Source of the DNA: Bolinopsis microptera
Lineage: Eukaryota; Ctenophora; Tentaculata; Lobata; Bolinopsidae
Length of the DNA: 64,000 nt
Direction of reading: 5' to 3'
Assembly (NCBI RefSeq): GCF_026151205.1
Contig: NC_087073.1
Coordinates: forward strand, 9,438,411 to 9,502,410
Shown here: positions 1 through 50,813 of the stretch, one piece after another
Layout: each line of letters begins with the position of its first letter
Numbering within the stretch: position 1 is the stretch's first letter
Program-made: the position numbers and the translations under genes
The notes under the pieces: generated by a model
The model's input: the letters and a program-made list of their open reading frames with translations, nothing else
What the model was told of the DNA's origin: nothing
Database searches by the model: none

Positions 1-3000
1 CAGAGCTTTGATGTCGCTGGAGACGGCGTCCACTGCAATTTCTAGAGCTCTTGTTCCTCGGCTGGCCTTGTCTTCAGCACTCTTCACTGTCTTCAATAAA
101 GAGCTGGTGGGAATAGAAAATTAGTTAGTTAAATACATATTCAACATCGGCGGTAAATCGGACGCTGGGCGCGGTAAATTGGGGTTTTTACTGTAATTGG
201 AAACTAGAAGTAGTACCGAACACGCGGTAAATTAGGGTTTTTATTGTAATTAGAAACTAGATGATGTACCTAACACTTTGAACCATCTCTTTAGCGCTAC
301 TCTTTAAATTGTCCATGGTATCGTGCTCACTAGATTTACCACACGCGTCTTTGGTGGAATCGATCAAACCAGACAGTGCCTTAGCAACATCCATACAGGC
401 GTTCAGCAACATAACCTGGGTCTCAACATCGTCAATAGACAAAGCTCCAGCACCACGTTTAACTGCGTCAGCAAGGTTGGAGATGGTGGTTTGAGCAGCT
501 AGGGCAGCCTGCTTGAGTTGAGCCTGATCTGCTGCAGCTCCTGCAACCAGTTGTTTGGTGTTCTCTACCAATTTCTTAGCGGTTCCTGAGGGGAGTAAAT
601 GTCACGAACCACACGCAGAATATTAAAAGAAGTCTATCCGAAATTCAATTTCCAGGCAACTTCTTAAGAATTTCGCCATGTCTCGGCGTCAGAAACTTAC
701 CAAGAATATTTTCTCTGTGGTTGGAGAAGGGTTCTCCTGTGTTCTCCAGAGCGCCGGTCCTAGCGAACATCTGCATGGTTTCCAAATCTCCGGTGATACC
801 GACAATAGAGTTAATAGTGTCGATACACGCCTGGGTTCCTTGACTACTTTGCTGCAGTGACTGTAGGAGGAACGAGTTAGCGAGCAAATCAAAGATATAA
901 ACTTAACAAATTTGTTGAGTGTCTAAGTAATCATCACAACATGATTTACCATGAAGTAGTCTAGCTGTTTAACAGTGATAGTAACACAGCAAATTACTCA
1001 AATATCACAGTTGTTTATAGGTAATTCATCATAATTTAAGGTGGTACATTATACATTCAGGTGATCTAGTATTAATTAAAGTATGCCCCCTTTGGCACCG
1101 GCATAACTATATCAAGTTATGGCAAAGAAACATTAATAATTTGAAGGTATGTTTGGTAAACTAACCTGAAGGATAGCGTGTACACCATGTGCAACTCCCT
1201 TGGCATGTTCACTCAGTTCTCTCCGGGAGATGGAATCCTTAGGATTACTCTGAACAGTAGCGCTTGTTTTCACCAGCTCAGAACAAGGATTAGCCAGCTT
1301 GTCTGTGGCGTCCCTGAGAGGCTCTGTACCCTGGCTGTCGGCACACTGTCTCACGTTATCCACCAGACTAGCGTACTCTTCAGATATAACCTGAGCAAGA
1401 TCGGACAGAGACTCGGGGCTGAGACTGGCCTTACCGACCATGTCCTGGCCAGCACCAGCTATAGCTCTGGCATTGTTCAGGATAGCCTCGTGTTGAGCCA
1501 TCACGGAAACACTTTCTTCAACTGGGTCGTTGAGAGTTCCACGTGACTTGGCGATATTCTCAATAAGTGAGGTGGACAGACCACTTTCAGGAGCCATTTC
1601 CAGGGTAAGTCTGAGGTCCTTGATAGCCTCATCGACAGCTTCAACATCCTGGTCTAATTTAGGATGAAGAGCAGTGGCGTTGGGGTTCCCTCCGCAATCT
1701 TTAGAGGTGCTTAACATATCGGACATTGCCTCCATCAGAGTTCTAGCCTGGAGTGGGGAGGACAGTTAATCATTTATATCGTGATGTAATCGTGAAAGTG
1801 AATATAAATTTCCGACAGTCGGGACCCTACAAGAAAGCTTGAAAGTTAAATTGTAAGAACCTGAGAGAAGAGGTCCTGTTGTCGATCCATGTCACTAAGT
1901 TTAGATGCAGCTCCAATAGTAGCACGAGATACAGGGTCAAAGTACAAAGACAATGTAGCCACGTTGTGTCCAAGCCTCTCGGGGTGACTCTTTGCAGACT
2001 CCACCAGAGGTTCTATCAGATCCTTTATTTCCATGGTTGCTGCTTCGAGCTGGGTCTGGTATCCCTGTAAATTTGTGGCTTCCTGTGGTCTGAGCTGTCC
2101 AGCAGTGGCACTGATGGCGGCCTGTTCCATCTCGGTCTGAGCACACTTCAGTTTCTCGAGAGCCTGGTCGCAAGGTTTTTGTCCAGGCACATTTTCCTTT
2201 ACTTGGTCAAGTAGATCCTTCACGGCATTCGACACAGATTTAGCCTGTAGGAGGTACAATATTGAAATTTTCAATTATATTGATCATTAGAATGTTTAGT
2301 GATTCAAAACATTTTCAAATTAAAAAGCAGGAAGTGAAAGTGAGAAGACTGACCTGAGTGATAAGGAGCTGCATGTTGGTACCATCGTTAGGATTGAGAG
2401 CTAAGGATCTGGAGAACTGGAGAAGTTTAGTGCTGGTGCTAGTGAGTTTGTTACCAGCATCTATCACACACTGCTGTCCTGCCTTACCCTGGGGACTGAT
2501 TCTGGCTGCAACTGGAGCGAACTCTGGAGACAGAGCAAAGTCTCGGAGGTGTTCCACTGATACCAGGAGAGGCTGAGCTGCCTCCCTACAAGCCTCCCTG
2601 TTCTCGGGGGTCAATTTGGTGGCCAGCGCCTTGATGCTCTTAACAAGCTGAGCGGTGCTGTTAGCCACATCCTTGGCGCACTGTACAAAGTGTCGTTTAG
2701 CCACGGGGTTGTCACATTTCTGGGACGCTGACTTGCAGGCGTTGCACAATTTGGAGGTGTGCTGAGCTATTTGAGTGGCAGCAGCCAGCACTTCCTGTTG
2801 TGTCAGGTCGGGCTGTGTTAGTTTCTCTACAGCAGCACTGATAACCCTGTGAGCGTTGTTGTAGAGGTCAGGGTCCACAATACCAGGGGTAGCTGCGGTG
2901 CTGTTGGGATCTGATACTCCCACCAGGTAGGCAGTCTGAGCTGCGGCATCTGCAGAGAAAGGGAGTTAGTGGCATTATAGTCTGTTATAAACTCAATGTA

Positions 3001-6000
3001 TTAGAGGATTTGATTATACCAGCTAACTATCAGATTACTTATTATAACTTACTTGACATTTAGAACAAAACAAAAACTCAACCAATTCACAAAACTAAAT
3101 CTTACGTGATAGGGCAGTAAGAGAATCGTTGACTTCGTCGATGGCACCAGCAAACGCCTTCCTGTCGTTAGCCTTAGCCAGGGTGGGCAGCTGTTTGAGG
3201 TTGTCCTCCAGGATCCTCTGGTTGTCCACAACAGACTCGATACAGTCGAAGAAGTTCTCATTACTGACAGGCACACTTGGATCTTGGAGACTGTTGTTCA
3301 GAGTCTCAAGGTTCCTGATAGCATTATCGCATTCCTTCTGGCCAGGCACACTGCTGGTGCAGGCATCGAGCAAGTTGTTGATGCTGTCAGTAAGAGATCT
3401 AGCAGACTGGGTCAGGTTGTTCTTGAGGTGTGGTGTGGTGGGATCTGCCACGCACAGCTTACTAAGACTCAGCAGTTTGTTGGAAGAAGCGTGGCAGTTC
3501 TTCAGCTGCATTATCACCTCTGACTGTAGTTCTGCGTCCTAGGAGAAATTTCTTCGGTTAACTAATATTTCGGGTAAATTAGCCAATTTTCAGATCTTCA
3601 TGTTCAGGTTCGCCTAATTAGCACATTCTTATTATTACACTTTACAGTCTTTGTTGTAAAAATGTACACACAGTTAATCGTGCAGTAATTGGTCAGCTGG
3701 CTAAGCCGGATATTGTTGTTAACTTTTTTGCGAAGGTAGCGTGCTGACTAAACTACAAATACGGGGAGTTTAAAAGGTAAGCCATTAACTTCCTCAACCA
3801 TTGCTCTATCTGCTAGTGTAGAATGTACAATAGTGTACTGTGGGGATGTGTGTTTATTGAACATTCATCTCCACATTGTTTAACCAGTGTCATACATCCG
3901 GAAAAACCGATGAGAAATTTTCTAGTGTTCTGTCCATCGAATTTAGCGTCTAGTCTAGGAAAACGAATTTATAAATACACTCTAATAAAAGATAATATGT
4001 TCTACATCAGATCAAGGGGAAAAATAAAAAGGAAGCCGTAAAACTTGTAAAACCTAAGGGATACACTTTTACGCCTGAGCTGATATGAATGTTTATTAAA
4101 AATATCACATAACATTCGCTAACCTTGGTTGCTCCAGCGAGCTGCATGCTGTGGTTGACAACATTTCCGTAAGTGGTGGCGAAGTTGTTAGCGACAACAG
4201 CCAGGTCCTCAGGAGAGACACGACTAGCTGCCACCAGCTCTGAAGACACCTGGTTCAGTTTAGCAGCGTCTTCTGAGACGGCGTTCTGTAAGTCTGCAAG
4301 TGACTCTCCCTGCCGGGTATAAGGTTAGAGCTGCAGTCGTGGTAATCATGGTACACGTTTCAGAGGGTGGAGTTTAATCTTAAGGGGGCCGGGGGGGGGT
4401 CTTCATCAAAATTCTCTCGAAATTGATTTTATAGTTGTTTCTGATAGAGGGGAGTGATATCTATCAGCTGCTTTTGGTCCCATGGAAAAATATTGTTCCT
4501 AGCCAAAATTATCGCCAGTCAAAGGTCAGCGCTTATGTGTAATTGTATTGCGCGAGCGATTTTCAATCGCGTGCCCTGAAAATCGAGTCTAAAAATCTAT
4601 CTTCTCCTACATTTTTTGAGCAATCACCCTGAAACTTTCAGGATATGTTCTATGGATCATTTAGAAGATATCTGTCGAGCCGAATATTGAGATAGGCCTT
4701 AGAAGATTTTTTATTCAATTTTGAAAATCTTGGACCTGGAAAAATCGTCAAAAAATGAGGTCCAAGATTTTCAAAATTAAATAAAAAATCTTCTAAGGCC
4801 TATCTCAAAATTCGGCTCGACAGATATCTTCTAAATGATCCATAGAACATATCCTGAAAGTTTCAGGGTGATTGCTCAAAAAATGTAGGAGAAGATAGAT
4901 TTTTAGACTCGATTTTCAGGGCACGCGATTGAAAATCGCTCGCGCAATACAATTACACATAAGCGCTGACCTTTGACTGGCGATAATTTTGGCTAGGAAC
5001 AATATTTTTCCATGGGACCAAAAGCAGCTGATAGATATCACTCCCCTCTATCAAAAACAACTATAAAATCAATTTCGAGATAATTTTGATGAAGACCCCC
5101 CCGGCCCCCTTATATGATTATGAGTTGGTTTGAAATTGTTGGATTACTCCGTGAGGCACGGCCTTTGATCTAGAATCTATGTTTTAAGAGTGAGGTCTAG
5201 CAGGTAGACTAAAAGTCTAACCTTAGTAGGTGGGAACCGGTTATCAGTAATAGCAACACTGGCTCTAGCGATCTCCTTGATAGCACTGTCAACGTCCTTC
5301 TGTCCAGGTAGTGAGTTGAGGAGGTTGTTGATAGCGTTAGAGACAGCCTTGTTGGCTTCATGCAGGTTCTTGGCCGCGTCCGCACTGTCCGGGTTGTTCA
5401 ACAGCACCTTGCTGTACTCCATCATGCGCTGAGCTTCGTCCAGCACGTCCTTAGCATTATCTATCACGACATTCTGATCGTTCCTATCATCGGTACACGC
5501 GCAAATACCACGTACCGCTCCGATTAGATCACCGAGATGGTTTGCTGTTTCGCGAGCTGCGATTCCTATAATGGGGTTGGCTGTATATCATGAGAATTAT
5601 GATGACAACATACTAAATGCAGTGACTTCTCCTTAAATAGACATGTATAAAAAAGCAGTTTTTCGCAAGCTGTAACTGAAGTATTTATTAAAATTAACGT
5701 AAACCAACCAATTAAATATATGTAAGTTATTCCAACTTAGTAATTATCATAAAATTGAATTGTTACCAGTGTAGTTAGCATTGCCCTGGTTGGCAGCTGT
5801 GAGCAGTTGTACCATACTAGTTCCAACCTGTCTACTCGCTCCGTAGAGGTCCGCTGTGCACGACTCTGGCTGAAAGAAGAGAATTAGTTTCACAGATATA
5901 AACAATTGTTTTGTCGGCTCAAGGTGAAACGAAGTTGTAACCCAGAATTGAAGTGAGGAAATCTGACACCAAGAGCATGATCTGAGTGTGTGATCAACCC

Positions 6001-9000
6001 AGTGCCATTCATTTGAGATTGCCAAATAACACACATGATACGATATTTCAGAATGGTGAATTGAATGGTATTTTATGGTATACTGACGTGGGTATAAGTC
6101 GGGAGGTGATCAACATTTTTGAGCTAAGAAAGCCAAAGAGACACATCAGGGTTTACAAAATGTTCGTAATAATCATATTTTATTCGGCCAAAAAGTATCA
6201 TGCAGTCTTTTAAAATACTTAATGTTTTTAGTGATATTATAGTTTTTGTTGCAAACATATGAATCACCGTTCGCGTTCCGCTATGACACACGTCAATTAA
6301 ATATTATATGATATTAGAAAGCAATTTCATTCATGGTAAAGATGTTCAAGCCGAAAAGTGAAAGTAGACTAACTAAAGATGAACTAAAGAAAGCAAGACA
6401 GATTAAAGAGTTCATTCAAGTTTCAAGGACAACTTCTAGGTTTTAATTCTACGTTCTAATTGTGGGATCTATGATCATATCTTAAATTAAAAATGTAAAT
6501 GATAGGAATAGATATGAGGAGAGATTAGAGTTCTATGCAGAATTCTTTGTAATTCCTGTATGCAATATGCATGATACGTAATTTACTGAACTTAAATAAT
6601 AATTTTGATTGCATTGCTGACATCAACTTATTTCTGCCCTAACAATAATCAGACATCTATTAAGTTTAAGCTTTGTGACAACATTCTTCAATGTTTGAAT
6701 GTCCCTGCATCTTATCGAGCAACTTTTCGTGAATCATTTGATCAAGAGGCCCACAGAACAACAATCAAAATACAGTATATCACTACATCAAATGCCATGC
6801 TGAAGTCTAGCTAGCTACCATCCACCATTAATGTACTACGGGATATCATTTATATGATGTTACCACAGATTTTATAATACATATGACGTCATAACATCAA
6901 TACAATGTGTAACACTGGCATTTAGTTTCTTTTAAATTCCCGGATTTCAACACTACTGTTGTGTAATTGGTGTGATTCTTAACATCACTGAGAGCTTTCA
7001 AACAGCCTGCAAAGTCCAAATACAGAATCGAAATTACAAAGTCGAAATTGTACATTGCAGTTTCATTTATTCCATTCCCGATGTAAATGGGCGAAATAAA
7101 TCTGGAAACAGTATTTTCATTTAACTTTCAAGTTCACCAGATAGTTTTGAAATCAGGGATTTAAAATCAAGGACCATACGACGCAATTACAATCGACTTG
7201 GTCACAGAATAAATAATTATATCCTGGACAGTTCACATAACACTAATAATTGTTAACGTTTCATGTTAACCGTTAACAATAGTAAAAGTAATCGGTACAC
7301 CACTTCAGATAAGATAACGTCACCAAAAGATCAGCTCATTACAAAACTTACGGTGCACTCAACAGGACCATCAGGGCTGGACTGAACAGAGGTGTTGGTG
7401 TTATTTTAGTGCCCTGTTATCTCTAGCTACATTGTAGCTCAATCTACATTGTAGCTGGATTTTTGTAGGGCTACGTTATTGCTAGTTCTACATAGCAATA
7501 TTTTCATTGCGACGAGCTATGTAGCAATTCGACATTTGAATTGAAGTAATTTGTTGGGCCTGGGTGATTATGAGATCTTCTTCAGTTGTTACTTTAGCTC
7601 AACAACTAGTTTGTTATAAATTTGTGGGTAAAGTTAGATCTAGTTTAATAAGATTACATATGATATCTTTGGGACTACACTATCTCGGTAAAGGAACGTT
7701 AGAATCTGAGAAGGGATAAAATACTTACTGTTTCTCGAGGTAGAGGTTTAATCGTTCCCTCTGCAACACTTCTTTCGACGTCCTTCAAGTTACCCTTGAC
7801 GTTTGCTAACAAGTCCAATGCGTTGTCAACATTAAGAGCAGTGAAGGATTCTCCAGCGCGGTTGGCGGCGTTGCGCAGGTTGACGAGCGCTGAAGCAGCA
7901 CTCTTGGAGAAGTTGGCGAGTTGAAGGGCGGCGGCTTGGTCAGTTACGTGGGGGACTGCTGACTTGGCAGCAGAAACACACCTCGTAGCCGGCTGGTGAA
8001 GTCATATTTAAACATCCAGAAGGTAATTGAGATAAATAGTTACATTATGTATTCAATAGTCCCACCAGACAACATTTTTGTCACTTAGGATAACTAGAAG
8101 TGTTAAAGAAACTGGAAATTGAGAATTAGGTAAAAAAGAAATGAAACTCACTGCTATGAACTGTTGGGCGCACTGCACGAGGTTCAGCTGCTCGGAGTCG
8201 TTGTTAGGATCGTGAGAATATGCGTTAATTGAGCTAACTAGTTTACTAATAGCGTCTCCTAGCATCTTGCACTGCGACATCAGGGCTTCTTGACTTGCTG
8301 AGTTACCTGAAAAACAAATCATCAGTAATTTAAATGTAATATGAAACATATGCTCGTCGCCTCCAGGCCATGAAACAGAACAATTTGAGAGAAAAGAACA
8401 TTCCAGTGTAAAAGGAAATTATTTAAGATAACCCAGGGCGCCCAGCCAGCTGCTCTGTCAGATCTATCACAAGATGTCATTGTCTTTTACTTCACACGAG
8501 TTAACTGTAAACTCCGGATAGATTTAATTCTACGCAAATCAGTAGATTGCAGTAATGAAAAGATCTGGGAATTTAATTCTATGAGTTTGTGTACGTTAGA
8601 TGCAAATTTCCGAAATTGAGATGCCCCGGTTTTAACTTTGACCCGTGTAATTTTTTCTCTGGTGAGTCGAAATAGGCCTGGAGTGTAGAGTTTTAAGGGT
8701 ATTGCCTGACGTAAACGTGGCCTAACGTTATAATATTTTCATCCAGAAGGTAAGGTTTTTTTTTTACAAATGTCTCAGACCCATAGCTAGATCTGTAAAT
8801 TTTAGGCAGACCCACTCAACAGCGGCCAAATTTTGCGCATTATGAGCCCCAAGCCCGATACCCACTTTGCCTCCCAATTATATTATCATCTCGTAACTTC
8901 ATAAAGAAGGTTCCGTTATTCATTTAAAGATTAAGTTTTATCGATTCTGGGCACGTAGCCCGACACGACACGTAGCCGGGGCGAAGCTCCTTTGGTTGGC

Positions 9001-12000
9001 TAGGGAGGGGGGAAGGCGCAGCCCCCCAGAAAATTTTTGAGAAATTATGTGTTTTAGACGACATTTGGCATTAAAGAAATTTGTAGGACAGTAATAATCA
9101 GACATCACAATAATACAGAGTTGGGGGGCGCAGCCCTGGCCTTCGGAAAATTTTTGAGAAATAGGGTGTTCCAGACGACATTTGTAGGACAGCAATAATC
9201 AGACATTACAATAATACAAGGTTGGTGGGCCGGGCTGGGGGGCGCAACCCCCGGAAAATTTTTGAGAAATAGGGTGATTCAGACGACATTTGGCATTAAA
9301 GAAATTTGTAGGACAGCAATAATCATACATCAGAATAATATAAAGTTGGTGGGCAAGGGGAGCGAACCCCCAGGAAAATTTTTGAGAAATAGGGTGATTA
9401 AAACGGCATTTGGCATTAAAGAAATTTGGGTACAGTAATAATCAGACATCACAATAATATAAAGTTGGGGGCCGGGGGGGGGGGGGGGGCGCAGCCCCCC
9501 AGAAAATTTTTGAGAAATAATGTGTTTTAGACGACATTTGGCATTAAAGAAATTTGTAGGACAGTAATAATCAGACATCACAATAATACAAAGTTGGGAG
9601 GCTAGGGGGGCGCACCCCCCGGAAAATTTTTGAGAAATAGGGTGATTCAGACGACATTAGGCATTAAAGAAATTAGTAGGGCAGTAATAATCAGACATCA
9701 CAATAATATAAAGTTGGTTGGCTAAGGAGGGGGGGGGGGGCGCAGCCAATAAGAAAATTTTTGAGAAATTATGTGTTTTAGACGACATTTGGCATTAAAG
9801 AAATTTGTAGGACAGTAATTATAATCAGACATCACAATAATACAAAGTTGGAGGGCTAGGCAGGCGCAGCCCTGGCCTTCGGAAAATTTTTGAGAAATAG
9901 AGTGTTCCAGACGACATTTGTGGGACAGCAATAATCAGACATTACAATAATACAAGGTTGGTGGGCTGGGGTGGCGCAGTAATAATCAGACATCACAATA
10001 ATATAAAGTTGGGGGACTGGGGGGGAGGGGGGGCGCAGCCCCCAAGAAAATTTTTAGAAATTATTTGTTTTAGACGACATTAGGCATTAAAGAAATTTGT
10101 AGGACGGCGATAATACAAAGTTGGGGGTGCAGCCCCCGGAAAATTTTTGAGAAATAGGGTGTTTCAGACGACATTTGGCATTAGAAATTTGTAATTTCAG
10201 ACATCACAATAATACAAAGTTGGGGGCTAGGGGGAACTCAGTACTTGTCACATTGAATTGAATAAGTACATATTGTATAGTGGGATTTGGGAATAATTTA
10301 CGAAATGCTAAAGTCGATTGCCTGTCGTGTCGTTTAATCAAACAGTCATAAACACAGCCCACTTACCAGGCGACCATGGGGACTAGGGGGCCTATTTTTT
10401 TTGGGGTTCAATTTTTTTCCGGGGGTCTTCACCTTGGCTACGTGTCTGCATTCTAGTTGCCAGACCCACTCTATTAGAGTGCAGACTCAACATTTTGGTT
10501 GCCAGACCCACTATTCTAGAGTCCAGACCCACAATTCTGGTTGTCATATCTCCTATATTCTAGTTCATAGACCCCCAATTCTGGTTGACAGAGTGAAGAA
10601 TTACCATTCTGGTTGCCAGATTCACTCTTCTAGAGAGGAGACCCACTCTTCAGTCTTCTAGTAGGTATAGAGTCAAGACCCACTATTCTAAAATGCAGAC
10701 CCACCATTCTGGTTGCCAGACCCACTCTTCTAAGGCGAAGACCTACCATTCTGGTTGCCAGCCCCACTCTTCTAGAGTGTAGACGCACCATTCCGATTGC
10801 CAGACCCACTATTCTTGAGTGAAGACCCACCTTTCGGGTTGCCGGACCCACTATTCTAGACTCTAGACTCCAGACGCACAATTCTGGTTGCCATATATCC
10901 TATATTCTAGTTTAGACCCCCAATTCTGGTTGACACTTAACAGAGTGTAGACTTACCATTCTGGTTGCCAGACCCACTCTTCTAGAGTGAAGACGGGGGG
11001 GTACCAATGGCATAGAATGGAGAAGAATGGCATAAAAATCATCAAATGGCATAGAAATTTCATGGCATAAATGGAAATTTTGTTTGGCCAATTCTCCATT
11101 TATGCCAATTTATGCCATGAATTTAGGTCTTCATATTTGACCTTTAGGATGACTTTAAATTCGCAAATATTATTAGTACTTGAATAAGAGACATGTTTCA
11201 TGCTTTATAACGCTTGAAATGATCGTTAAAGTCAAAGATTCATATGACAAATAACTAAATAAAGAAAATAGAAATGTATTATATCAAATATATACCAAAC
11301 ATTTCACTATTCAAGAAAAGCAAATTGTGAGATGTTCAAAATGTACAGAATACAAACATTGACAACACAACGATTTTGAATGTCATCAAGGAACAATGCA
11401 TCTGATGTATTTGTCTTCGACGAGTAGCCATACATTAGGAGATCCATTGATTAGGCTATGTTCCTGGCAGTAGTACTTCATCGGGCATGACTTATAAGAA
11501 ATAAATCTAACCACTCCTGTTGCAAAGTTCTGCTGAGATTTGAAGACTTTAAGAGTTTCTGTACTGCCAGCTTTCAAAACTGTTGAACATCCGCATTCAG
11601 GTTGATTGTATATGCGAACATCAGAAGACACTCCAAACGCGTCCCCCTTGAATCTTGAAAGACGAGATTTTGTTGATAAAGTGCTTCTTCCTCCATTGAG
11701 CGTGAGTGTCTCAAAAGACCGGAAGGATAGTGTTCCATATTTATCTGTTGATATCGTTTCTCCATCATCACAATCATCAACTACAGGTTCTACCTCATAA
11801 GCTAAGTCGTCCTCATCCTCGAGGCATCCAGATTCATCATCTACAGCTCCCCAAGAAAGTTCTTGGCCATGGACGATTGGCTTCCCACTCCGTTCTTCAG
11901 GATCTGCGACTGCGGCGAACACAGGGAAATTGTTTCTTTTCCCTTCTCGAATGCAGTCCCTCGATGCCCTGTCCAGCGTTTTTGCCAACTTGCCTAGGCA

Positions 12001-15000
12001 TATCATACCACCAGTCCATTTCACTCGTTCTGCTTTCTGGCCTGCAGATTTAACCTTTTTGAGGTGAACTGTAGGATGCAAAACTGTACTTCCACGTGCA
12101 TATGCAATTGCAGATGTGTCTTCATGTAATGATAAAGCACTGTACACATTCTCTCTCCATTCCATGGGCCATAGTTATCGCATCCATATTTCTTGAGCGA
12201 CCAGATGAAAAAGAAACCCGAATAAATGCAAACAGCTGCTCATTCTGATCACTTCCAAGGTAATAAGTGACGATTTCGGCATTAGGGAATTGCTTCTTCA
12301 GCAAAGTTAAATACAAAACAAGACCGTCACAAGTACATATAAGATCAAGGTACGTCTGATTCGTTATGCTGACAGCTGAGTAAGTATTCCCTTTCCAAGT
12401 AACAAAAAATGTTTTTTCTCAAACAGTTCCATTTTTATTATACTTTATAGTTTAGAGTCTAATTTGGCATGATATCAGATCATGTGATATTACATGGCCC
12501 CATGGAGAGCATTGCCAGAGCAATTGGCCAGAGAGCTCCATAGAAGTAAGGGGCCTACTCTAGCCAACAGCTCTACGTAATACATTTCCTTCCTCAACTT
12601 CATTTTCTTCATCTAACTGCTGCTGCTGCTCAGCAACTACTTGATAGCTGGCACAGTGACAATTGTCTGCGTAGTGTATCTGTTAGCCTCAATTTTGCCT
12701 CAAGGAGGGAAGGTAGCCTCAATCCAACCTCACATAAGTTTCGATAAAGTCTCGATAACCTTTGGGCTACAATTACAAGTTTTATAGTGGGTCTATAACA
12801 TGTTTCCGTACATTAAAGTTAAAACTTAAAATGCGGTCGAATCATTTATTAGCCTCATTTTGGCCTCCTACAAGAAGACTCTGCGATTTCTAAAATGTTG
12901 AGCTTGAAGAGGATGAATAAATTTGTATTGTTGACACATTAGATAGTCACAATACCGAACATGCTCGAAAATATACACAAAAGTATACTTGTTAGCCTCA
13001 TTTCACTCTCTCACAAGGTGGTTAGCCTCATTTTCACCTCGAAAATTTGAAGCTATAATCCGACGGAATTTCATGGCAACATAGATATCAAGTAACTTGT
13101 GAGTTGTTAACCTGTTTCCGTACATTAAAGTTAAAATGCGGTCGAATTTTTTATTAGCCTCATTTTGGCCTCCTACAAGTAGACTCGGCGATTTCTGAAA
13201 TGTTGAGTTTTATTATTATTTATTTGAAGAGGATGAATCAATCTTTATTGTTGACGTATTAGATAGTCACAATACCAAACCAACTCGAAAATATATACAA
13301 AAGTATACTTGTTAGCCTCATTTCACCCTCTCAAAAGGTGGTTAGCCTCATTTTCACCTCGAATATTTGAAGCTTAAATACCGATTAAATATAATCCCAA
13401 GGAATTTCATGTGCAACATGGATACCAAGTAACGTGTGAGCTGTTAACCTGTTTCCGTACATTAAAGTTAAAATGCGGTCGAATTATTTATTAGCCTCAT
13501 TTTGGCCTCCTACAAGTAGACTCGGCGATTTCTGAAATGTTGAGTTTGAAGAGGATGAATCAATCTTTATTGTTGACATATTAGATAGTCACAATACCGA
13601 ACCAACTCGAAAATATACACAAAAGTATACTTGTTAGCCTCATTTCACCCTCTCAAAAGGTGGTTAGCCTCATTTTCACCTCGAATATTTAAAGCTTAGA
13701 TCTCGATCAAGTATTTAAATCACTATGGATTATACTTGCAACTTGGATATCATGGACGTAACATGAGAAAGTTCTTTTTTGAAAGTGGTGAGGCTAATTT
13801 GTTAGCCTCAAATCTCAATTGTCCCTCGCAGTTAAATCACTCCTACTGAGTCTAGTGAGTGAGCTAGGAGGTCGCCGAACATCTCATTTTAAAGCCGTAT
13901 CGATTTTCTATACGCATACCAAAAATCAAATGCGTAACTAAAACAGAAATGAAATTACAGAAGTTTTAAATTTTTTGTCAAAAAACGAACTTTTAGGGGT
14001 GTTTCTAATGACCAGGGTCAGTACAACAAATAGAGATAAAGGTGGACAGTACTAGTGGGGTGCAGACTATTCGTTATTAAATTCTCAGTTCAAAGTTTTA
14101 AAATTTAATATTTCGAATGGCATAGAATGGAGAAGAATGGCATAAAAATCATCAAATGGCATAGAAATTTCATGGCATAAATGGAAATTTTGTTTGGCCA
14201 ATTCTCCATTATGCCATTTATGCCATTGGTACCCCCCCCGTGAAGACCCACTATTCTAGAATTCTTACCCACCATTCTTGTTGCCAGACCCACTCTTAGC
14301 TAGAGTGAAGACCCACTATTCAAGAATTCTGACCCATCATTCTTGTTTCCAGACCCACTACCCTAAGGTGCAGACCCACCATTCTGATTGCCAGACTCAC
14401 TCATCTTGATTCCCTTGATTGCAGACCCACTATTCTGGTTGCCAGACCCACTCTTATAGATTGCAGGCACACCAATCTAGTTGCCAGACCCACTCTTCTA
14501 AAGTGTAGACCCACCAGACCTATTATTCTAGAGTGAAGACCCACCATTCGGGTTGTCCAAACCCACAATTCTGGTAGCCATATCTCCTTTATTCTAGTTT
14601 ATAAACCCCCAAATCTGGTTGACAGAGTGTAGACTTACCATTCTGGTTGCCAGGCCCACTCTTCTAGAGTGAAGATCCACTATTCTAGAATGCAGACCCG
14701 CAATTCTGGTTGCCAGACCCACTATTCCAGATTGTAGACCCACCTTTCTGGTTTCCAGACTCACCCTTCTAGGGCGAAAATCCACCATTCTGGTTGCCAG
14801 ACCCACTCTTCTAGAGTGTAGACGTACCATTCTGATTGCCAGACCCACTCTTCAAGGGTGCAGACCCACATTCATGTTGCAAGACCCACTTCTAGATTTC
14901 AGACCCACTAAATTCTAGCTGCCAGACTCACTTATAGATTGCAGACCCACCATTCCAGCTGCCAGACCCACTCTTCTCAAGTGCAGATCTACCACTCTGG

Positions 15001-18000
15001 TTGTCAGACCCACTCTTTAAGGGTGCAGACTGCAGACCCACTCTTCTCAAGTGCAGATCCACCATTCTGGCTGCAAGACCCACTTTTAGATCGCAGACCT
15101 ACCATTCTAGCCGCCAGACCAACTCTTCTCAAGTGTAGACCCACCACTCGGGTTGTCAGACTAACTCTTCAAGGGTGTACGTACACCCACCATTCTGGTT
15201 GCCAGACCAACTTCTAGATTGCAGACCCACCATGGCCATTCCAGCTGCCAGACCCACTCTTCTCAAGTCCAGACCCACCACTCTGGTTGTCAGACCCACT
15301 CTTCAAGGGTGTACGTACACCCACCATTCTGGTTGCCAGACCAACTTCTAGATTGCAGACCTACCATTCCAGCTGCAAGACCCACTCTTCTCAAGTCCAG
15401 ACCCACCATCGGGTTGTCAGACCCACTCTTCAAGGGTGTACGTACACCCACCATTCTGGCTGCCAGACCAACTTCTAGATTGCAGACCCACCATTCCAGC
15501 TGCCAGACCCACTCTTCTCAAGTGCAGATCTACCACTCTGGTTGTCAGACCCACTCTTTAAGGGTGCAGACTGCAGACCCACCGTTCTGGTTGCCAGACC
15601 CACTTATAGATTGCAGACCCAACATTCTAGCTGCCAGACCCACTCTTCTCAAGTGCAGACCCACCACTCTGGTTGTCAGACCCACTCTTGAAGCCTGAAG
15701 GGTGCAGACCCACCATTCTGGTTGCCAGACCAACTTCTAGATTGCAGACCCACCATTCCAGCTGCCAGACCCACACTTCTCAAGTGCAGATCTACCACTC
15801 TGGTTGTCAGACCCACTCTTTAAGCCTGAAGGGTGCAGACCCACCATTCATGTTGCCAGACCCACGTCTAGATTGCAGACCCACCATTCTAACTGCCAGA
15901 CCCACTTCTAGATTGCAGACCCACCATTCTAGCTGCCAGACCCACTCTTCTCAAGTGCAGACCCACCACTCTGGTTGTCAGACCCACTCTTCAAGAATGC
16001 AAACCCACCATTCTGGTTGCAAGACCCACTTTTAGATCGCAGACCCACCATTCTAGCTGCCAGACCAACTCTTCTCAAGTGTAGACCCACCACCCTGGTT
16101 GCCAGACCCACTCTTCAAGAATGCAAACCCACCATTCTGGTTGCAAGACCCACTTTTAGATCGCAGACCCACCATTCTAGCTGCCAGACCAACTCTTCTC
16201 AAGTGTAGACCCACCACCCTGGTTGTCAGACCCACTCTTCAAGGGTGCAGACCCACCACTCTGGTTGTCAGACCCACTCTTCAAGGGTGTACGTACACCC
16301 ACCATTCTGGTTGCCGGACCCACTTCTAGATTGCAGACCCACCATTCCAGCTGCCAGACCCACTCTTCTCAAGTCCAGACCCACCACTCGGGTTGTCAGA
16401 CCCACTCTTCAAGGGTGTACGTACAGCCACCATTCTGGTTGCCAGACCAACTTCTAGATTGCAGACCTACCATTCCAGCTGCAAGACCCACTCTTCCCAA
16501 GTCCAGACCCACCACTCGGGTTGTCAGACCCACTCTTCAAGGGTGTACGTACAGCCACCATTCTGGTTGCCAGACCAACTTCTAGAATGCAGACCCACCA
16601 TTCCAGCTGCCAAACCCACTCTTCTCAAGTCCAGACCCACCACTCTGGTTGTCAGACCCACTCTTAAAGGGTGCAGACTCACCATTTAGCGGCCAGACCC
16701 ACGCTTCTCAAGTGCAGACCCACCACTCTGGTTGCCGGACCCACACTTCTAGAGTGAAGACTCATTATTCTCGAATGCAGATCCAAAATTCTGTTGCTAG
16801 ACCAACTTCTAGATTGCAGACCCACCATTCCAGCCGCCAGACCCACTCTTCTCAAGTGCAGACCCACTATTCTGGTTGTCAGACCCACTCTTCTAGAGTG
16901 AAGACTCATTATTCTCGAATGCAGATCCACAATTCTGGTTGCTAGACCAACTTCTAGATTGCAGACCCACCATTCCAGCCGCAAGAACCACTCTTCTCAA
17001 ATGCAGACCCACCATTCTGGTTGTCAGACCCACTCTTCAAGGGTGTTGACCCACAATTCTGGTTAACAGACCCACTTCTAGATTGCATACCCACCATTCT
17101 AGCTGCCAGACCCACTATTCTCAAGTGCACACCCACCACTCTGGTTGTCAGACCACTCTTTAAGGGTACAGACCCATCATTCTGGTTGCCAGACCCACTT
17201 CTAGATTGTAGACCCACCATTCTGGTTGCCAGACCCACTTCTAGATTGCAGACCCACCATTCTAGCGGCCAGACCCACTCTTCTCAAGTGCAGACCCACC
17301 ACTCTAGGCAACAGGGGTGAATAATATCAACAAATAAAGATTGTTTAATTTTTGCAAAAAATTTCTCGTCATGTGACAACCCTTCCCAACCCCCCTCAAC
17401 CCCCTACCCCTCCCCCCTAAAAAACTCATCGGATTTTTGCTTCCCGCGAACATGATTTTTTCTGAAAATTTTTGTCAAGCCAGATCTGTAAATCTATCAA
17501 ATATGTAAAAAAAAAACCTTACCAGAAGGGCACAAAGTATTAGGGTCTACTATATTTTGATTGGAATGAAAGTGAAGTAACTGTGATCAAAGATATACGC
17601 ATTTCCAATGCAACAGTAGATATGTACATTGTACTGTTAGATATTTATTGGCGTTGTGTTCCTTTGTGACGGCGTTGCTGATTGTCTGCAAAGTGCAAGT
17701 TGAGTAAAATCTCATGATCTGTTAAAGTAACATTGAACAAGGTTACATGCATATATAAACATGTGTGTAATCATATATATTATGGTAATATAATACTCTA
17801 TACTGCCAATCTCATGATGCTATTAGATCATCGCTCAGGGAGTGGTGGTTTTGCTTTTGAGGCTGTGTATTTATTTGTCATTCTCGTCCCTTTTGCTTTA
17901 TGCTTTCATTCTGTAAAAGCTCGCACCGTGAAGGTGCCCTCGCTACGTTCGAATTACACAAAGCCCCAAGATTAGACTAAAGTTACTAAAGATGGATGCT

Positions 18001-21000
18001 GCCGAAGATGAACTGCTTCGTATTCTGTACACCCAAGTTGAATTTATCGCCGATAAAGCTGCCTTCTACGATCGTTATGGGTTCTATCTTGAGGAATATC
18101 TTTCGAACAGGACAATTTTTGCACTTCTGTGTCGAGATCACGCTGAACGTATTGAACGGCGGGTCAAGAGGTCAGGGATCGCCAAAACAGTGGGCGGATC
18201 TGTGAATATCATATCTGGTGGAGCAGCTATAGCTGGGATCATCCTAGCCCCGTTTAGTGCTGGACTTTCGCTTGGTTTAACAGTTGGGGGCATCGCTGGT
18301 GGGATTGCTGGTGCGAGTACTAATATTATCGCTGATCTGGCTAAAGACAGGAACATCAGATCTGATATAAGGAAGATACAGGCAGCTTTAACAAGATTCG
18401 AGCGTCAGGAAAGAGTTATCTTTGAGTTGTTACAGCAAGTGCAGAACAATTTCAACCGGCTAAGACAACTCAAACAAAGAGCTCCTTCTAAAAGTGGGTC
18501 CGCTTTTAGGGGGGTAAGAAGCACATTTGTAATAGTTCGGGAAGGAAAGATCTAGAAGAATCTGTACGCGCTTCTATGAAATTTGCCGAATTTTCAAAGA
18601 AGGCGTGTTCTGCCACCAGTTCTGCAGGGTGCAGTTGTATAAAAAACGTGGGCGCTGCCGCCGGCTCCATTGCAGACGAAGTAGCTGCTCCTGGGTTCCG
18701 AACACTAATAACTGCTGGATCCACAACTGCTAAACTATTGTCTGGCGCACTTGCTGCTTTTGGAATAGTCATGGGTATCTTGGACATATATAGTGCAGTG
18801 AAAGACATAGGAGGTTCAGAGATTTCCGATGCTTATCGCAGATTCGCTGATGAATATAATGATTACACGGAGAATTTAATATCTGGTATTGAACGGCTTT
18901 CTGAATTGCTTTAACAATACGGTCAATCAGCGTGAATGAGGGTCACCATTTTAGTAAACATTTTATTTTTAAGATTATATTTTCTTATTAATTTGAGTGA
19001 AATATTGGATGGTTTATTCCGGGAATTTATGCTACTATACTGAGCTTGACCTAACGGAGAAATTGAACAGGTGGCTACAGCCGCAACTACATTGATTATC
19101 AGTACATTGTACAGATACATTGCATCGTACATCATGAATGTGCTTTCCCTAAAAGGAAAACGTTCCCATAACATTTAACAATCCTCCTTTCAGTAAAATG
19201 ATCGAAATTTTCCACATCAAATTTCACAGCGTTGCTAAAAACAAGTATATCTTACCGTTGCATCTCTCAGCTCCGTTAGCGGCAGCAAGAAGTTGCGTGC
19301 TGGCGGCTGTAGCGATCTTGGCGTGGTCTTGTAGTTTAGCCATCAGTTTAGCCTTCATGTTTTCAGATGTGGCATTGTTTGCTGCTTGTCGTAGATCTTC
19401 TGTAGTCTACAAAACAATTGAAAGTTAGATGTGGTTTTAATGTTTTGTTAATAGTTGATATAGGAGTTACGTATGATTTATCAGTTTTTTTCCAGACAGG
19501 ATCATGCACCAAAAAGGCTACTAATTGTACCTTCATCAACCCGTAATCTGTGGCTAGACAAATTGTCCCAAAACTTGTTGCACCTTGCTATATCTTAGAT
19601 TTAATTTAGCTCATGAAAATTAACATGGAGAATGGAAATCATTTTTAGAGTAAACATTTTAATCCTTTGGTAGCTGTATAATGTACATTTTACATTGTAT
19701 AATGTACATTGTACATTCTGCTCGATGTAACGAAGAAATATTGCAAATGCGTGGATTTAAAAGGAAATTTATCTAACGAATATTGACCTGTTGCAGAGCA
19801 AGTTGACAATGTTCATCGTTGGGGTTCATGGCTGCTGCTTTAGCAGCCTCAACCATCCTAGCAGTGGCATCAGCCAACTGTTTAGCAGCTGCCAGCAACT
19901 TGGTCTGACTTTCACTGTCATTCTGAGATTCAGCCTCCAGTTTGATACCATGTACCAAGGAGCTGGTGGCTCGGGCTATTATCTTGGCCTGTTGTACCAT
20001 CTCGGCAGTGTTTCCCATAGAGTTGAACATCTTGTCACTAGCATCTAGGATCTGTTCTGCGCTCAACTCCCGGCCTAGAAAAGTAGAAAGTTAACATTTG
20101 AAATAGGTTATTTCAGTCTTGTGTGGTTAAATTTGAACTCAAAACAATTTCTTGGACAAAACGCTAAGCCATCCACCAATTATAGATTCACAATCTTCCT
20201 GCGCCTTACCATCTTGTTGAGTGGATAGCGGAGTTTGTTTGATGAACCTGATGAGCTCATCCAGCGCTTTCTGGGCCTCCTCAGCACTGGCGCTGACGTT
20301 GTTCAGTATTCCCTGGTCATCGGAACTGTTCTGAGCTGTGTGCACTAATCCTTCGACAGCATAGGCTACTCCCTGCCAACATTTGTCATGTTAGATACGT
20401 AATGTGTTAAATCAAGTTACTGACGCGTTAAAATGATGGAATGTTATCCTTCCTGTGTATATTGTGGCGTGTACTTTGCCAATATGTCATTCAACCTTTG
20501 GGAAATTTATACTCGTATACTGCGGACTTTAGCCAAAGTTCAGAGCATTTTGAAACAATTTGACAGATAAATTTTGATAATTGCAGACGTCCTGTCTCAA
20601 TTTACAGATTTAGTGTTCACTTCTGAAACATGACTATGATGGAATTAGTGTGGAGTGTCAGATAAATGTCTACTAGAAATGTATCCTGTATGAGTGTGAG
20701 TGTGACAGACCCTGCTGGTTTTTGAGTGAATGTTGAGAAGTAAGTTGAGTGCAGTTAGGTGGTGGATGATGATTTGGTGGGTTGGGTTCACCTTAGCAGC
20801 CTCCATAAGCTGCTGCTGGCACAATGGACTGGCCATAGTGGGTCCGAGCAGCTTGATACAGGTGACCAGTTGAGAACTGCTGGCTGCAGCGTCTTTACTG
20901 GCGTTGATAACCTGGAAAAGTTAGGTCGAGTTAGTACAATGGGTGTTAAAGATAAGAACAATAATATTCACTTACTCTAAAGGAACTTGAAAATAATGAT

Positions 21001-24000
21001 ACAAAGATTTGAACAGTCTAATTATTTACCTGTCCTTGCATCTCAGGATCGGAGCAAGATCGGGCAACCTCCTTACAATCATTAACAAGCTTTCCAACAG
21101 CCTGGGCAACAAGCCTGGCCTGGTCCAGGAACCTCATCTGCATGTCAGACTCAGTTTCCGGATCTCCCAAACATCCCAACACTGCCTTGTGAGCATCTGC
21201 CATGGCGTTGATAGCAGCTTGCTGAGCCGCGCGGTTGGCACGTCCGTCTTTAGCGGCGTTCAGGAGGTCCTGAGTAGCGCCAGCTAGACGATTAGCTGCT
21301 GCTAGGAGGTTGTCCTTCTCCGGGCCGTCAGGTTGCAGAGTCATTAACATTCTCAGATTCTTCGCCGCATCAGTCATGTTGCTTGTAAGCTGGGACACGT
21401 TCGTTCCTGCGTAGAGAAGTTTGTCATTTAACTTTCGAACACAACTTTAACACCATTTAATTGTAGATAATATACGTCGAGTATCCAGTTGCAGTTGGAT
21501 GACCCTAAATGAGTATTCTATTGACAAAGAAGTTTGTCATGGAAGGATCATAAATGAGTAAGCAAAAAATGAAAATGCATACCAATAGCAAGGTAGTTGG
21601 GGTCTGCGTTAGCGAGAGGAGTGTTGATGTAAATACCACAGGCAGCAGTGGAACTTGCCACCAAATTGCTGTGTATGTTGTGTTTACTAGTGTCAAACAT
21701 CATCTCTCTCCATTGCCTGCTTGCAATGTTATCACCAAGTGGCGGCAAGTCCGCGGGGTAAGCCATCTCGTTCTTGGCCTTCTCGATGTCGTCGATGCTA
21801 AGCATGATGTTGGAGATGTGAGCTTGCTGTGGGTTTCCTGCAGCTGAGGTTATGTCAGGAGGCTGACCCATATGGGCGGATTGGGCTATGTGGATACCAC
21901 CGTGCTGTATGAGATGTTCGGGTGCGTCAGTAGCAGAGACTACACCACGCTTTCCAGGGTCTCCTGGGCGCAGGATTCCCGACATAGCTATGTTGTCTTG
22001 GTCGATCATCTCCCTGTCTCCTCCGATGTTTTGCAGAGTCATCGCTTTACCTGTAGGTTTGAGGGTGGAGTAACCCCAGAATTCTGTACACTAGCTCAGC
22101 GGTCTTCGATTGTACTCGCTCTCACAGCTTAACCTATATCTATCATATCTGGATATCTAGCATGCTGTGATATCTGATTTCATGCATTCGTCAACAAAGC
22201 CACAATTTAGTAAAATCGCTTAAACCCCCAGAGAAATCACTTCATAATAAAACATACCTGGTCTGACTTGGTCCTCAATAACAGTAGCTTCTTCATCAGT
22301 TTCACTTAGTCTTCTGTCTCCACCAGTCTTGTTCTTCATGATCAAATCGATGTACTGTGATATCAGCTGGGATATCTTTTCTCCTTCCTGTGGACAGGGA
22401 CGTTAGAAAATCAACATCTCTCCCGAAAATCAAAATCTCTCCCGAAAGAGGCTGTTCAAAGCAGAATTACAAAGAATTCTCAATCATTAAGTCAAAACAA
22501 ACCTGGGTCTGAACAGAGTAGTAACTCTCGGAATAGTCTCCGAAATCGAGAGTAAAACTGTTTGGGGAAGCAGCCCATCGTCTTACGGTGGTTAACTGCC
22601 ACTCCTGTATGACCTCCTTCGTCTTCTCGTCAACTCTCATCACCTTCTCCTTTGTGATGCCCAACAATCGGGGTACGAGCCTATTCTTACCTGCCGAGTT
22701 AGTTATTAGCTATAAAATCGCCTTGTTTAAAAGTTGGAGTAGAAACGTTGAATGAACATTGAACAACGAGACAAAACGTTTTATTAATTGAAGCTATCAA
22801 GTTCAAATCCTAAGAAGATGTCAATATATCGGTTATTATTCCCGTAATTTAGAACGTAATATAATATATTCTTATTCGATATTGAAATGAATATTACCTT
22901 TCATCTTCTCTTTTACGAGGAAGAAAGTCACACCATAAGTTTTCAACTCTCTGCAGTACTTAATATACCTCAGTTTTCCGTTTAGCTCCGTCATACCGAT
23001 AAGTTTCCTGTGTTCGGCAAATATTTTCTTCTCCATCCCGGGAATTTTACGGTACTCAGTTGGTAGCAAGTCCTTCAACTCGAGGAACCCTTTCTTGTGT
23101 TTGTTCTCATCGTGATTACCGAACTGGATCTGTACTCTGATAGCAGACAATGTGATGGCGTCTTCTTGCGAGACTTTGTGTGTTCCGTTCAGAACGCATG
23201 TGTTATCCTGATAAGTGAAACTTTTAGTGAACACTTCATATTTAATTAGTTGGTTTCTTGTCAGTTGTCACGTTCAATTGGTATCTATCAAGGAAGTTTC
23301 ATCCAAGGAAATCATCTTGTTAAAGGTACGATTTTACCTGTATGTACATAAGATTTAGCTGAACCGGATCGTTTCTGTCCACATTAATATCAGAGAAGAA
23401 CAATTTCTTTCTCAAAAGAAGCATCTGATCGTCAGGGATGCCTTGTTCCCTCAAACTTTTCTCATGATTAAGCCACAATATATCATCGTCTGTGTGTAAC
23501 TTTTTACGTAGAGTTTCCATTTTCTTGCGATCACGTTCTTGTAATCCACTTGTTTTATCCTAAAAGAATACTATTAAAACCGCAGCAAGTAAACTTGGCA
23601 CAGAGCCAATGCTTTGATAACCATCGATTATCATCATCATTAACCGTTTGAGTTTAGAGTATTCTATATAATAGATCCCAATAGACCATGTCTGCTTACA
23701 ATATCGATATTGGTTAGATAACGCATGTCGCACTGTTTTTATGTGGATGTTGATATTTAGCTTTTACGAATGTAAACTTGTAGCAGAACTTGAATTTCTT
23801 TTAAACGTCCCTTAACTATTAAAAGTTAGTAATGTTTCATAGTACTATTGTTAATTATCATGATGTCATGAAAGCAAGTCATCCAATGATTTGGCAAAAT
23901 TTTACCTTACGAAGCGTTGCATTCTTTGCATCATCAGCTTGGAGGTTCTCCACCACTAATGAAAACTCGTCAGGGTTATTAATACCAATCCTCTCACAGA

Positions 24001-46430: not shown

Positions 46431-48774
46431 ATCTTCGCGTTTTCCAGAACAGTAGATGAATCCATAAATTTGGAACATGGGCACATCGCAGTATTGGCCG
46501 TATTTGAGTGCTGGGAAGGCTCAGTTCGGTTTTCTAAGATGATATAGCCGTAAGCTAGGCCTAGGAGCCATCAAAAGTCGTATAAAATTACCCATGGAAT
46601 GACCAGAAATGAACGAAAATGAACATTCTTCTCAAAGTGCTCAGAATGGTTTAAAATGGGTCGGAAAGTGTTTACATTGGTCCTGGGACCACTCAAACCA
46701 AGTTTGGGCATCACTGCATGTCTAGAACCGATGTGAAGGTGGTTCCAATTTTGATTTTTGTAACCATTTTGGGAACATGGGGACATCGAAGTATTGGCTG
46801 TATTTAAGTGCTGGGAAGCCTCAATTCGGTTTTCTAAGATGGATATAGGTAAAAACTAGGCCTTAGAGCCATCAAAACTCAAATAACATTACCCAGGTTC
46901 ATGGAATGAACGAAAATGAACAAAAATGAATATTGTCCTAAAAATGCTCAGGACGGTTTAAAATTGGTCGGAAAGTGTTTATATTAGTCCTAGGACCACT
47001 CAAACAAAGTTTGGGAATCACTGCATGTTTAAAACCGATGTTACCAATGTTCCAAAATGTTCCAATTTTGGCACAATAATCCTCCTGAGAATCCAGATTT
47101 TTTGGAACATGGGCACATCGAAGTATTGGCTGTATTTAAGTGCTGGGAAGCCTCAATTCGTTTTTCTAAGATGGATATAGGTAAAAACTAGGCCTAAGAG
47201 CCATCAAAACTCAAATAACATTACCCAGGTTCATGGAATGAACGAGAATGAACAAAAATGAATATTGTCCTAAAAATACTCAGAACGGTTTAAAATTGGT
47301 CGGAAAGTGTTTATATTAGTCCTAGGACCACTCAAACCAAGTTTGGGAATCACTGCATGCCTAGAACCGATGTGAAGGTGGTTCCAATTTTGATTTTTGT
47401 AACCATTTTGGGAACATGGGGACATCGAAGTATTGGCTGTATTTAAGTGCTGGGAAGCCTCAATTCGGTTTTCTAAGATGGATATAGGTAAAAACTAGGC
47501 CTAAGAGCCATCAAAACTCAAATAACATTACCCAGGTTCATGGAATGAACGAAAATGAACAAAAATGAATATTGTCCTACAAATGCTCAGGACGGTTTAA
47601 AATTGGTCGGAAAGTGTTTATATTAGTCCTAGGACCACCCAAACCAAGTTTGGGAATCACTGCATGTTTAGAACCGATGTTACCAATGTTCCAAAATGTT
47701 CCAATTTTGGCACAATAATTCTCCTGAGAATCCAGATTTTTGGAACATGGGCACATCGAAGTATTGGCTGTATTTAAGTGCTGGGAAGCCTCAATTCGGT
47801 TTTCTAAGATGGATATAGGTAAAAACTAGGCCTAAGAGCCATCAAAACTCAAATAACATTACCCAGGTTCATGGAATGAACGAAAATGAACAGAAATGAA
47901 TATTGTCCTAAAAATGCTCAGAACGGTTTAAAATTGGTCGGAAAGTGTTTATATTAGTCCTAGGACCACTCAAACCAAGTTTGGGAATCACTGCATGTCT
48001 AGAACCGATGTTACCAATGTTCCAAAATGTTCCAATTTTGGCACAATAATCCTCCTGAGAATCCAGATTTTTGGAACATGGGCACATCGAAGTATTGGCA
48101 GTATTTAAGTGCTGGGAAGCCTCAATTCGGTTTTCTAAGATGGATATAGGTAAAAACTAGGCCTAAGAGCCATCAAAACTCAAATAACATTACCCAGGTT
48201 CATGGAATGAACGAAAATGAACAAAAATGAATATTGTCCTAAAAATGCTCAGAACGGTTTAAAATTGGTCGGAAAGTGTTTATATTAGTCCTAGGACCAC
48301 TCAAACCAAGTTTGGGAATCACTGCATGTCTAGAACCGATGTTACCAATGTTCCAAAATGTTCCAATTTTGGCACAATAATCCTCCTGAGAATCCAGATT
48401 TTTGGAACATGGGCAGATCGAAGTATTGGCTGTATTTAAGTGCTTGGAAGCCTCAATTCGGTTTTCTAAGATGGATATAGGTAAAAAATAGGTCTAAGAG
48501 CCATCAAAAGTCAAATAACATTACCCAGGTTCATGGAATGAACGAAAATGAACAAAAATTAAAATTTTCCTTAAAGCGCTCAGAATGGTAAGAAAATGGT
48601 GGCAAAGAGTCAATATTTACGTCCAACAGAGTCTTAAAGTTGCATTCAGAATTATGTACAATTAGCACACGTACCTCCAAGAGAAGGCAGAAATTATTTG
48701 ATTGGGCAACTATTTTGGTTTTAATAATCCCCCAATATATTGATATACATTTTTGACATCATTAGCTGTATTTG

Positions 48775-50070: not shown

Positions 50071-50813
50071 GGGGGCCGGGGGGGGGGGGGGGGGGGGGGG
50101 GGGTCTTCATCAAAATTCTCTCGAAATTGATTTTATAGTTGTTTCTGATACAGGGGAGTGAAATCTATCAGCTGCTTTTGGTCCCATGGAAAAATATTGT
50201 TCCTAGCCAAAATTATCGCCAGTCAAAGGTCAGCGCTCATGTGTAATTGTATTGCGCGAGCGATTTTCAATCGCGCGCCCTGAAAATAGAGTCTAAAAAT
50301 CTATCTTCTCCTACATTTTTTGAGCAATCACCCTGAAACTTTCAGGATATGTTCTAGGGATCATTTAGAAGATATCTGTCGAGCCGAATTTTGAGATAGG
50401 CCTTAGAAGATTTTTTATTCAATTTTGAAAATCTTGGACCTCATTTTTTTACGATTTTTCCAGGTCCAAGATTTTCAAAATTGAATAAAAAATCTTCTAA
50501 GGCCTATCTCAAAATTCGGCTCGACAGATATCTTCTAAATGATCCCTAGAACATATCCTGAAAGTTTCAGGGTGATTGCTCAAAAAATGTAGGAGAAGAT
50601 AGATTTTTAAACTCGATTTTCAGGGCGCGCGATTGAAAATCGCTCGCGCAATACAATTACACATGAGCGCTGACCTTTGACTGGCGATAATTTTGGCTAG
50701 GAACAATATTTTTCCATGGGACCAAAAGCAGCTGATAGATATCACTCCCCTCTATCAGAAACAACTATAAAATCAATTTCGAGAGAATTTTGATGAAGAC
50801 CCCCCCGGCCCCC
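50071..50813. mobile_element. TTAA-flanked fold-back element, copy 2
   Basis: This is the same 0.73-kb inverted-repeat element as at 4384-5109, here with a longer G run. It interrupts a 330-bp repeat unit. Sibling units read CAGCACTTAAATACAGCC without interruption, whereas here the sequence is CAGCACTTAA, element, TTAAATACAGCC. This proves a TTAA target duplication and shows that the insertion came after the array formed. Confidence 0.93.

Follow-up and report, generated by a model that had tools for sequence, protein, structure and literature searches.

Several DNA transposons with internal tandem repeats have been described, and they provide the background for the repeat-rich element analyzed here, which lies in the talin gene of the ctenophore Bolinopsis microptera, within a stretch of 64,000 nucleotides of contig NC_087073.1 (positions 9,438,411 to 9,502,410; hereafter the window, G000:C2:9438411-9502410 of the 264.65-Mb assembly). 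Tetris and DAIBAM of the Drosophila virilis group (PMC4079207) resemble the talin element in that they are non-autonomous, with target site duplications (TSDs) of 8-10 bp and internal tandem repeats, have a small relative of the miniature inverted-repeat transposable element (MITE) type with the same ends and no autonomous partner found, and possess a repeat unit with a stretch in common with the terminal domain; the internal repeats of Tetris have been proposed to be transposase sites. Unlike the talin element, Tetris has long terminal inverted repeats (TIRs), both of which hold the repeats, and these repeats also make up satellite arrays elsewhere; its authors suggest a Mutator affiliation. 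The talin element has an 18-bp TIR and two arrays unrelated to each other, and the motif places listed revealed no free arrays.

Galileo, a member of the P superfamily (PMC3688188), contains internal tandem repeats that carry further transposase-binding sites and so offers a precedent for considering such repeats as docking sites; in Galileo, however, the repeats reside in long TIRs and binding has been shown, whereas for the talin element binding is predicted, and the ends and the lean of the TSDs point to hAT. The MITEs Xstir and miDNA4 of Xenopus and pearl/CvA of bivalves (PMC9659126) are likewise small non-coding DNA transposons in which internal repeats expand, but they belong to other superfamilies or are unclassified, and neither a double-array body nor a series of intermediates is described in the available part of that source, which also reviews MITEs that gave rise to satellites; in corals, MITEs occur in tandem arrays (PMC2872659). 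The hAT elements Hermes, Tol2 and Ac (PMC10368747) have the 8-bp TSD, the short TIR and repeated short motifs near the ends in common with the talin element, but the motifs of Hermes are few (17 and 14 in its ends), whereas the talin family holds 36-98 exact motif cores per full copy (mean 65), mostly far from the ends. A literature search, with partial coverage of subscription papers, found no hAT-like element that has two internal arrays unrelated to each other.

The talin element is likely a non-autonomous DNA transposon of the cut-and-paste kind with a hAT-like mode of action; it occupies about 60 places in the genome and has a body made up of two tandem arrays. The block at 8751-17521 is confirmed as a DNA transposon with an 18-bp TIR and an 8-bp TSD; the family has precise ends, 8-bp duplications of the target, paralogous empty sites, dispersed copies with near-identical ends and a constant internal order, and the window copy contains a nested transposon. 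The TIR (TAAGG, ten T, ACA) and the exact duplication CCAGAAGG reported in a preliminary description of this DNA were recovered at both boundaries (Table 1), whereas its view of the 8.8-kb block as one transposon was amended, given that 3245 of the 8771 bp belong to the nested element. When the window was scanned for 18-bp perfect inverted repeats with an identical 8-mer on either side, the matches were the pair at 8751/17504, pairs lying within unrelated arrays in the region of about 47-52 kb, and a single pair at 50378-50525. The bare TIR is present at 76 places genome-wide, compared to one for the reversed control, and therefore a chance origin of the pair is excluded; 60 of these 76 places are the ends of 35 paired copies, and the remaining 16 are also ends of this family.

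The search for other copies that the preliminary description had suggested showed that the same termini delimit copies across the genome. When the left 401 bp, TSD included, was used as the query, 39 long matches besides the window (among the best 40 of 377 candidates) began at query bases 3-10, most commonly at base 9, the first base past the TSD. Exact end patterns identified 43 left ends and 41 right ends, from which 35 elements with lengths of 3338-11876 bp could be paired, and an internal motif of the unique left segment (at most 3 mismatches) matched 60 places, with no control matches, indicating about 60 left ends of the family. Perfect 8-bp TSDs flank 38 of the 44 copies compared, namely 21 of the 25 full copies that were read (the window copy and 24 others), 16 of 18 further copies for which both ends were compared, and the divergent copy L030, and all 38 of these 8-mers differ from one another. 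The joined flanks of 20 insertions were searched against the genome, and three of these junctions are uninterrupted elsewhere, at 4, 15 and 18 places with 97-100% identity (best 40 of 1493 candidates); the empty sites sought after the preliminary description thus exist as paralogous repeats, whereas for the talin site itself only the filled site, and no empty allele, was found in the same set of candidates. The median pairwise difference over the two ends of 43 copies is 1.6% and the largest 15.9%, two copies are identical to the consensus, and the tree of the copy ends is near star-shaped, with unsettled bootstrap. The low divergence and the star-like tree fit a recent burst of copies. L030 (G000:C5:4828105-4830117) interrupts an open frame of 149 amino acids (aa); this frame is intact at four other places and resembles a portion of a multi-copy gene or element.

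All 25 full copies display the same order of parts: unique left segment (L), array a, unique middle segment (M), array b and unique right segment (R), with M unlabelled in L010 and several copies interrupted by other DNA (Table 1 for the window copy). Both arrays are present in each of the 25, and the minisatellites are therefore internal structure and no local expansions, in agreement with the earlier suggestion that they are cargo or internal structure of a mobile element. Array a spans 513-1535 bp in 22 copies (L010, L023 and L024, in which it is interrupted, are left out), and the segments of array b span 1281-3411 bp in 25 copies, with the larger part alone measured where the array is split. 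The full copies have no coding body. Among the 70 stop-to-stop frames of at least 50 aa in the window block, there is no long one outside the nested element except those derived from repeats. The inserts of seven long copies, examined for frames of at least 100 aa, contain a reverse transcriptase in L024 (RVT_1, E 6e-29), low-complexity frames in L021 and two unlabelled frames in L025, but no transposase; L010, L018, L020 and L023 lack any frame of this length.

Table 1. Features of the talin element and its nested transposon (window coordinates)
Feature	Position	Strand	Remark
Left TSD CCAGAAGG	8743..8750	.	8-bp
Left TIR, 18 bp	8751..8768	+	
L, unique left segment, ~241 bp, contains CAGACCCA twice	8751..8991	+	copy comparison; motif tested against shuffles
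CACGTAGCC, two stretches in the orientation opposite to 10436; possibly left over from an end of a captured repeat	8952..8977	+	inverted pair 8967-8986 / 10427-10446
Array a, unit ~120 bp	8992..10230	+	boundaries approximate
M, unique middle segment, ~210 bp	10231..10440	+	
Array b, left part, cut by nested transposon	10441..10994	+	
Nested transposon, left TSD GTGAAGAC	10987..10994	.	
Nested transposon, unclassified, 20-bp TIRs at 10995-11014 and 14219-14238	10995..14239	.	
Two overlapping open frames of nested transposon, 11386-12174 and 12122-12418	11386..12418	-	
322-bp tandem array inside nested transposon	12822..13698	.	
Nested transposon, right TSD GTGAAGAC	14240..14247	.	
Array b, right part, 21/42-bp units around core AGACCCAC	14240..17305	+	
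R, unique right segment, 216 bp	17306..17521	+	
Right TIR, 18 bp	17504..17521	-	
Right TSD CCAGAAGG	17522..17529	.	

The commonest 8-mer of array b, AGACCCAC, has 1572 exact copies in the 60,656 bp of the 25 arrays, and its near-matches are spaced by 21 bp in 1479 cases, by 19 bp in 289 and by 42 bp in 173. The same core is also subterminal in the full element and is present in reverse orientation in small relatives of the family. Eight divergent left ends were read. Two of them, L085 and L086, belong to elements of 321 and 324 bp that have ends of the same type, are flanked by perfect TSDs and contain a short, reverse-oriented b tract; being short, non-coding, bounded by TIRs and multi-copy, they qualify as MITEs, in contrast to the main copies of at least 3.3 kb. 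L090, L091 and L092 resemble this pair but show partial decay, a b tract is absent from L088 (495 bp), and L087 starts like a small family member, with no right end within the 5 kb examined. An intermediate, L089, measures about 2.1 kb; the array b of L030 is 755 bp long. Array b is probably an expanded tract of the subterminal motif AGACCCAC, spaced mostly by 21 bp, about two helical turns, which the small members carry as well.

A more far-reaching but rather improbable scenario is that array b is a self-amplified tract of putative transposase-binding subterminal repeats, that dozens of helically phased docking sites would spread the element better than its array-poor relatives, that a captured piece of a second transposon became the second array, and that the path from a 320-bp MITE via single-unit intermediates to the double-array element survives in one genome. 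We consider it somewhat more probable than not that the arrays are neutral by-products of slippage growth, such as could occur in any non-coding transposon body, with no part in mobility. In favor of this reading, L002 and L011 combine identical ends with arrays of different length (608 versus 1259 bp for array a, 2293 versus 2525 bp for array b), and the motifs of Hermes located beyond 50 bp are reported to be dispensable as binding sites (PMC10368747). The cores differ at 1.42% of sites and the spacers at 2.11% in 8 disjoint pairs (Fisher p 0.004), but array sites are not independent, the difference is small, and it is reversed in 2 of the 8 pairs. Less readily explained by neutral growth are the recurrence of the b core in L, where CAGACCCA occurs twice (20000 dinucleotide shuffles yielded none with two copies and 146 with one), its presence in the small relatives in the other orientation, the steady 21-bp spacing, and the retention of both arrays in all full copies. 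L006 and L008 show the pattern opposite to that of L002 and L011, with b arrays that are 99.8% alike over 2193 bp.

The hAT-like assignment derives from the 8-bp TSDs, the TAAGG ends and the lean of the TSDs towards nTnnnnAn. The end consensus of hAT elements is YARNG, and the TAAGG start of the 18-bp TIR is of this type. P, Merlin, Mutator-like, KDZ and other elements also make 8-bp TSDs, and the talin element could be a non-autonomous member of one of these superfamilies, which we regard as improbable. In favor of this alternative, the hAT assignment is drawn from the ends and the TSDs, with no transposase linked to them; the fit of TAAGG to the consensus, the TSD lean and the abundance of hAT matches in the genome (150 of 150 scored PF05699 candidates above the cut-off, best 150 of 366) argue against it. 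A hAT transposase encoded elsewhere would cut at TAAGG...CCTTA and paste the element with an 8-bp stagger. In Hermes, the target pattern is nTnnnnAn (PMC10368747).

Several observations count against a hAT-like element of this kind. The preference for T2/A7 in the TSDs (37 of 76) is a modest lean compared with the controls at positions 4/5 (32 of 76), 3/6 (28 of 76) and 1/8 (4 of 76). Six of the 44 copies lack a perfect TSD (L010, L018, L020, L024, C6_17397 and C5_15835), with what looks like a one-base shift in L020, and for 17 of the 20 joined junctions no intact site is among the matches listed (again the best 40 of 1493 candidates). No transposase is tied to the ends of the element, and no other family has the TIR at 0 or 1 mismatch, which was found in this family and at a few isolated one-mismatch places; an autonomous hAT partner was sought through a looser TIR pattern (among the 100 matches listed), in the seven long-copy inserts and at PF05699 places (a minority of the hAT loci was read), and none was found. 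One PF05699 place on C5 has TAAGGTTTTTT sites nearby, but this is a coincidence: the sites belong to a duplicated segment of the host and lie beyond the hAT fragment. At this locus (L082, G000:C5:6484500-6494000), the host segment is duplicated in direct orientation with about 95% identity, and a hAT-bearing stretch of 0.8 kb is present at one duplicate only.

Two other identities were considered and rejected. Helitrons and Helentrons of the DINE-1 type, which have central tandem repeats, make no target site duplication and have no TIR, and are ruled out by the TIR and the 8-bp TSD. An element of the Foldback, Galileo or Tetris type, with long TIRs that contain tandem repeats, is ruled out as well, given that the inverted match between the two ends extends over 23 bp (96% identity) and that the arrays are internal and mutually different.

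Array a appears to have a different source. Its unit is present once each in L030 (2013 bp) and L089, and the start of the unit together with about 130 bp beside it in L030 resembles the dispersed repeats L078-L080 (73-80% identity over ~220 bp). In L078 and L080, the region similar to the a unit is followed by an end-like stretch around CCTGGCTAC, inverted copies of this stretch enclose the a unit and M in L030, and less perfect remnants of it are detectable in the window copy at 8952, 8969 and 10436. Given the resemblance of unit a to part of other dispersed repeats and its single occurrence in each of two divergent relatives, a capture-then-amplification series seems to be visible in one genome: we infer that the unit was captured from another transposon and was later tandemly amplified. 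In this process, a segment akin to part of other dispersed repeats, single in L030 and L089, would have been multiplied in tandem, and array lengths would then shift through slippage or unequal exchange, more quickly than substitutions build up. The direction of the series, with the small and single-unit members ancestral, is suggested by comparison of copies within one genome. It appears unlikely that the single a units of L030 and L089 are contractions of an earlier array; arrays can shrink as well as grow, and the lengths of array a vary among copies, but the ~130 bp beside the unit in L030 match L078-L080 and have no match in the main copies compared, as would be expected if the single copy came first.

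Independent expansion of intronic minisatellites, with an inverted repeat and an 8-bp repeat around them by coincidence, has a negligible probability: the array lengths do vary among copies as in ordinary minisatellites, but the L-a-M-b-R unit with the same ends and TSDs at many unrelated sites and the near confinement of the array motifs to the element stand against it, and this alternative is already refuted by the other copies.

The suggestion that such elements could seed free satellite DNA gained no support from the searches for arrays outside the element. All 73 exact places listed for the b motif fall inside element intervals, as do 97 of 100 matches listed for the a motif, which has at least 100 exact places (covered up to C12:52977); 12 kb inward from a single known end was allowed for 9 of the b places and 11 of the a places. 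With one mismatch, the totals are 361 for the b motif and 381 for the a motif. The three exceptions for the a motif are short fragments of the unit, and no free satellite array of unit a or b was found among the exact motif places listed. One of the one-mismatch b places listed, C1:19023354, lies in L081, where the first 30 bp of R come after an older b tract. A cluster on C5 near 5.09-5.15 Mb was considered as a case of satellite seeding and rejected. Here, four stretches that were read have one common flank. Where the right end is included, the stretch carries a 2-kb insertion that is also present in L025 on C3, and a 57-59-bp satellite fills the 6.5 kb that separate two of the copies. Because the C5 copies share flank and insertion with L025 within this satellite, an existing satellite multiplied the element and not the reverse. 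The many insertions and deletions in the cluster may be old or assembly noise. What was multiplied is a block of this satellite together with the element in it, as represented by L093-L096 and L098 (G000:C5:5085447-5153329) and by L025 (C3:662909-669690), which have the same flank.

The nested transposon (3245 bp), with perfect 20-bp TIRs and the duplication GTGAAGAC, interrupts array b. Its insertion site is uninterrupted, once each, in 17 of the 24 other full copies, and no uninterrupted site is present in the window copy. Its first 1456 bp match 40 places including the window, 34 of them starting at base 1 (best 40 of 327 candidates), and many copies are near-identical. It is left unclassified because neither of its two open frames has a match in Pfam. 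Array-bearing bodies may be common among the transposons of this genome.

Minus-strand frames matching talin models (IBS2B, rod, VBS, middle and FERM_M) are located on both sides of the element, at 260-5587 and 21021-23267, and accordingly the element sits in talin, between coding pieces. An ApoL-like open frame on the plus strand (17932-18911; PF05461, E 4e-12 for 17932-18552) also lies between the talin coding pieces, on the opposite strand. Elsewhere in the window, two 331-bp tandem arrays (46469-48589 and 50813-52391), with reverse-complementary units, are arranged face to face about 2 kb apart and are possibly another array-bearing mobile element, and a 41-bp tandem array at 25921-26720 comprises 19.5 copies with a 94% match.

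Accounts of how arrays arise within transposons usually work back from the end products. In the present case, a single assembly includes array-poor small relatives, two single-unit relatives, a recent burst of double-array copies, and dispersed repeats that resemble the source of one of the units. The coexistence of these forms makes it possible to test both the stepwise building of arrays and whether a non-autonomous element spreads more readily when it carries arrays of a subterminal motif.

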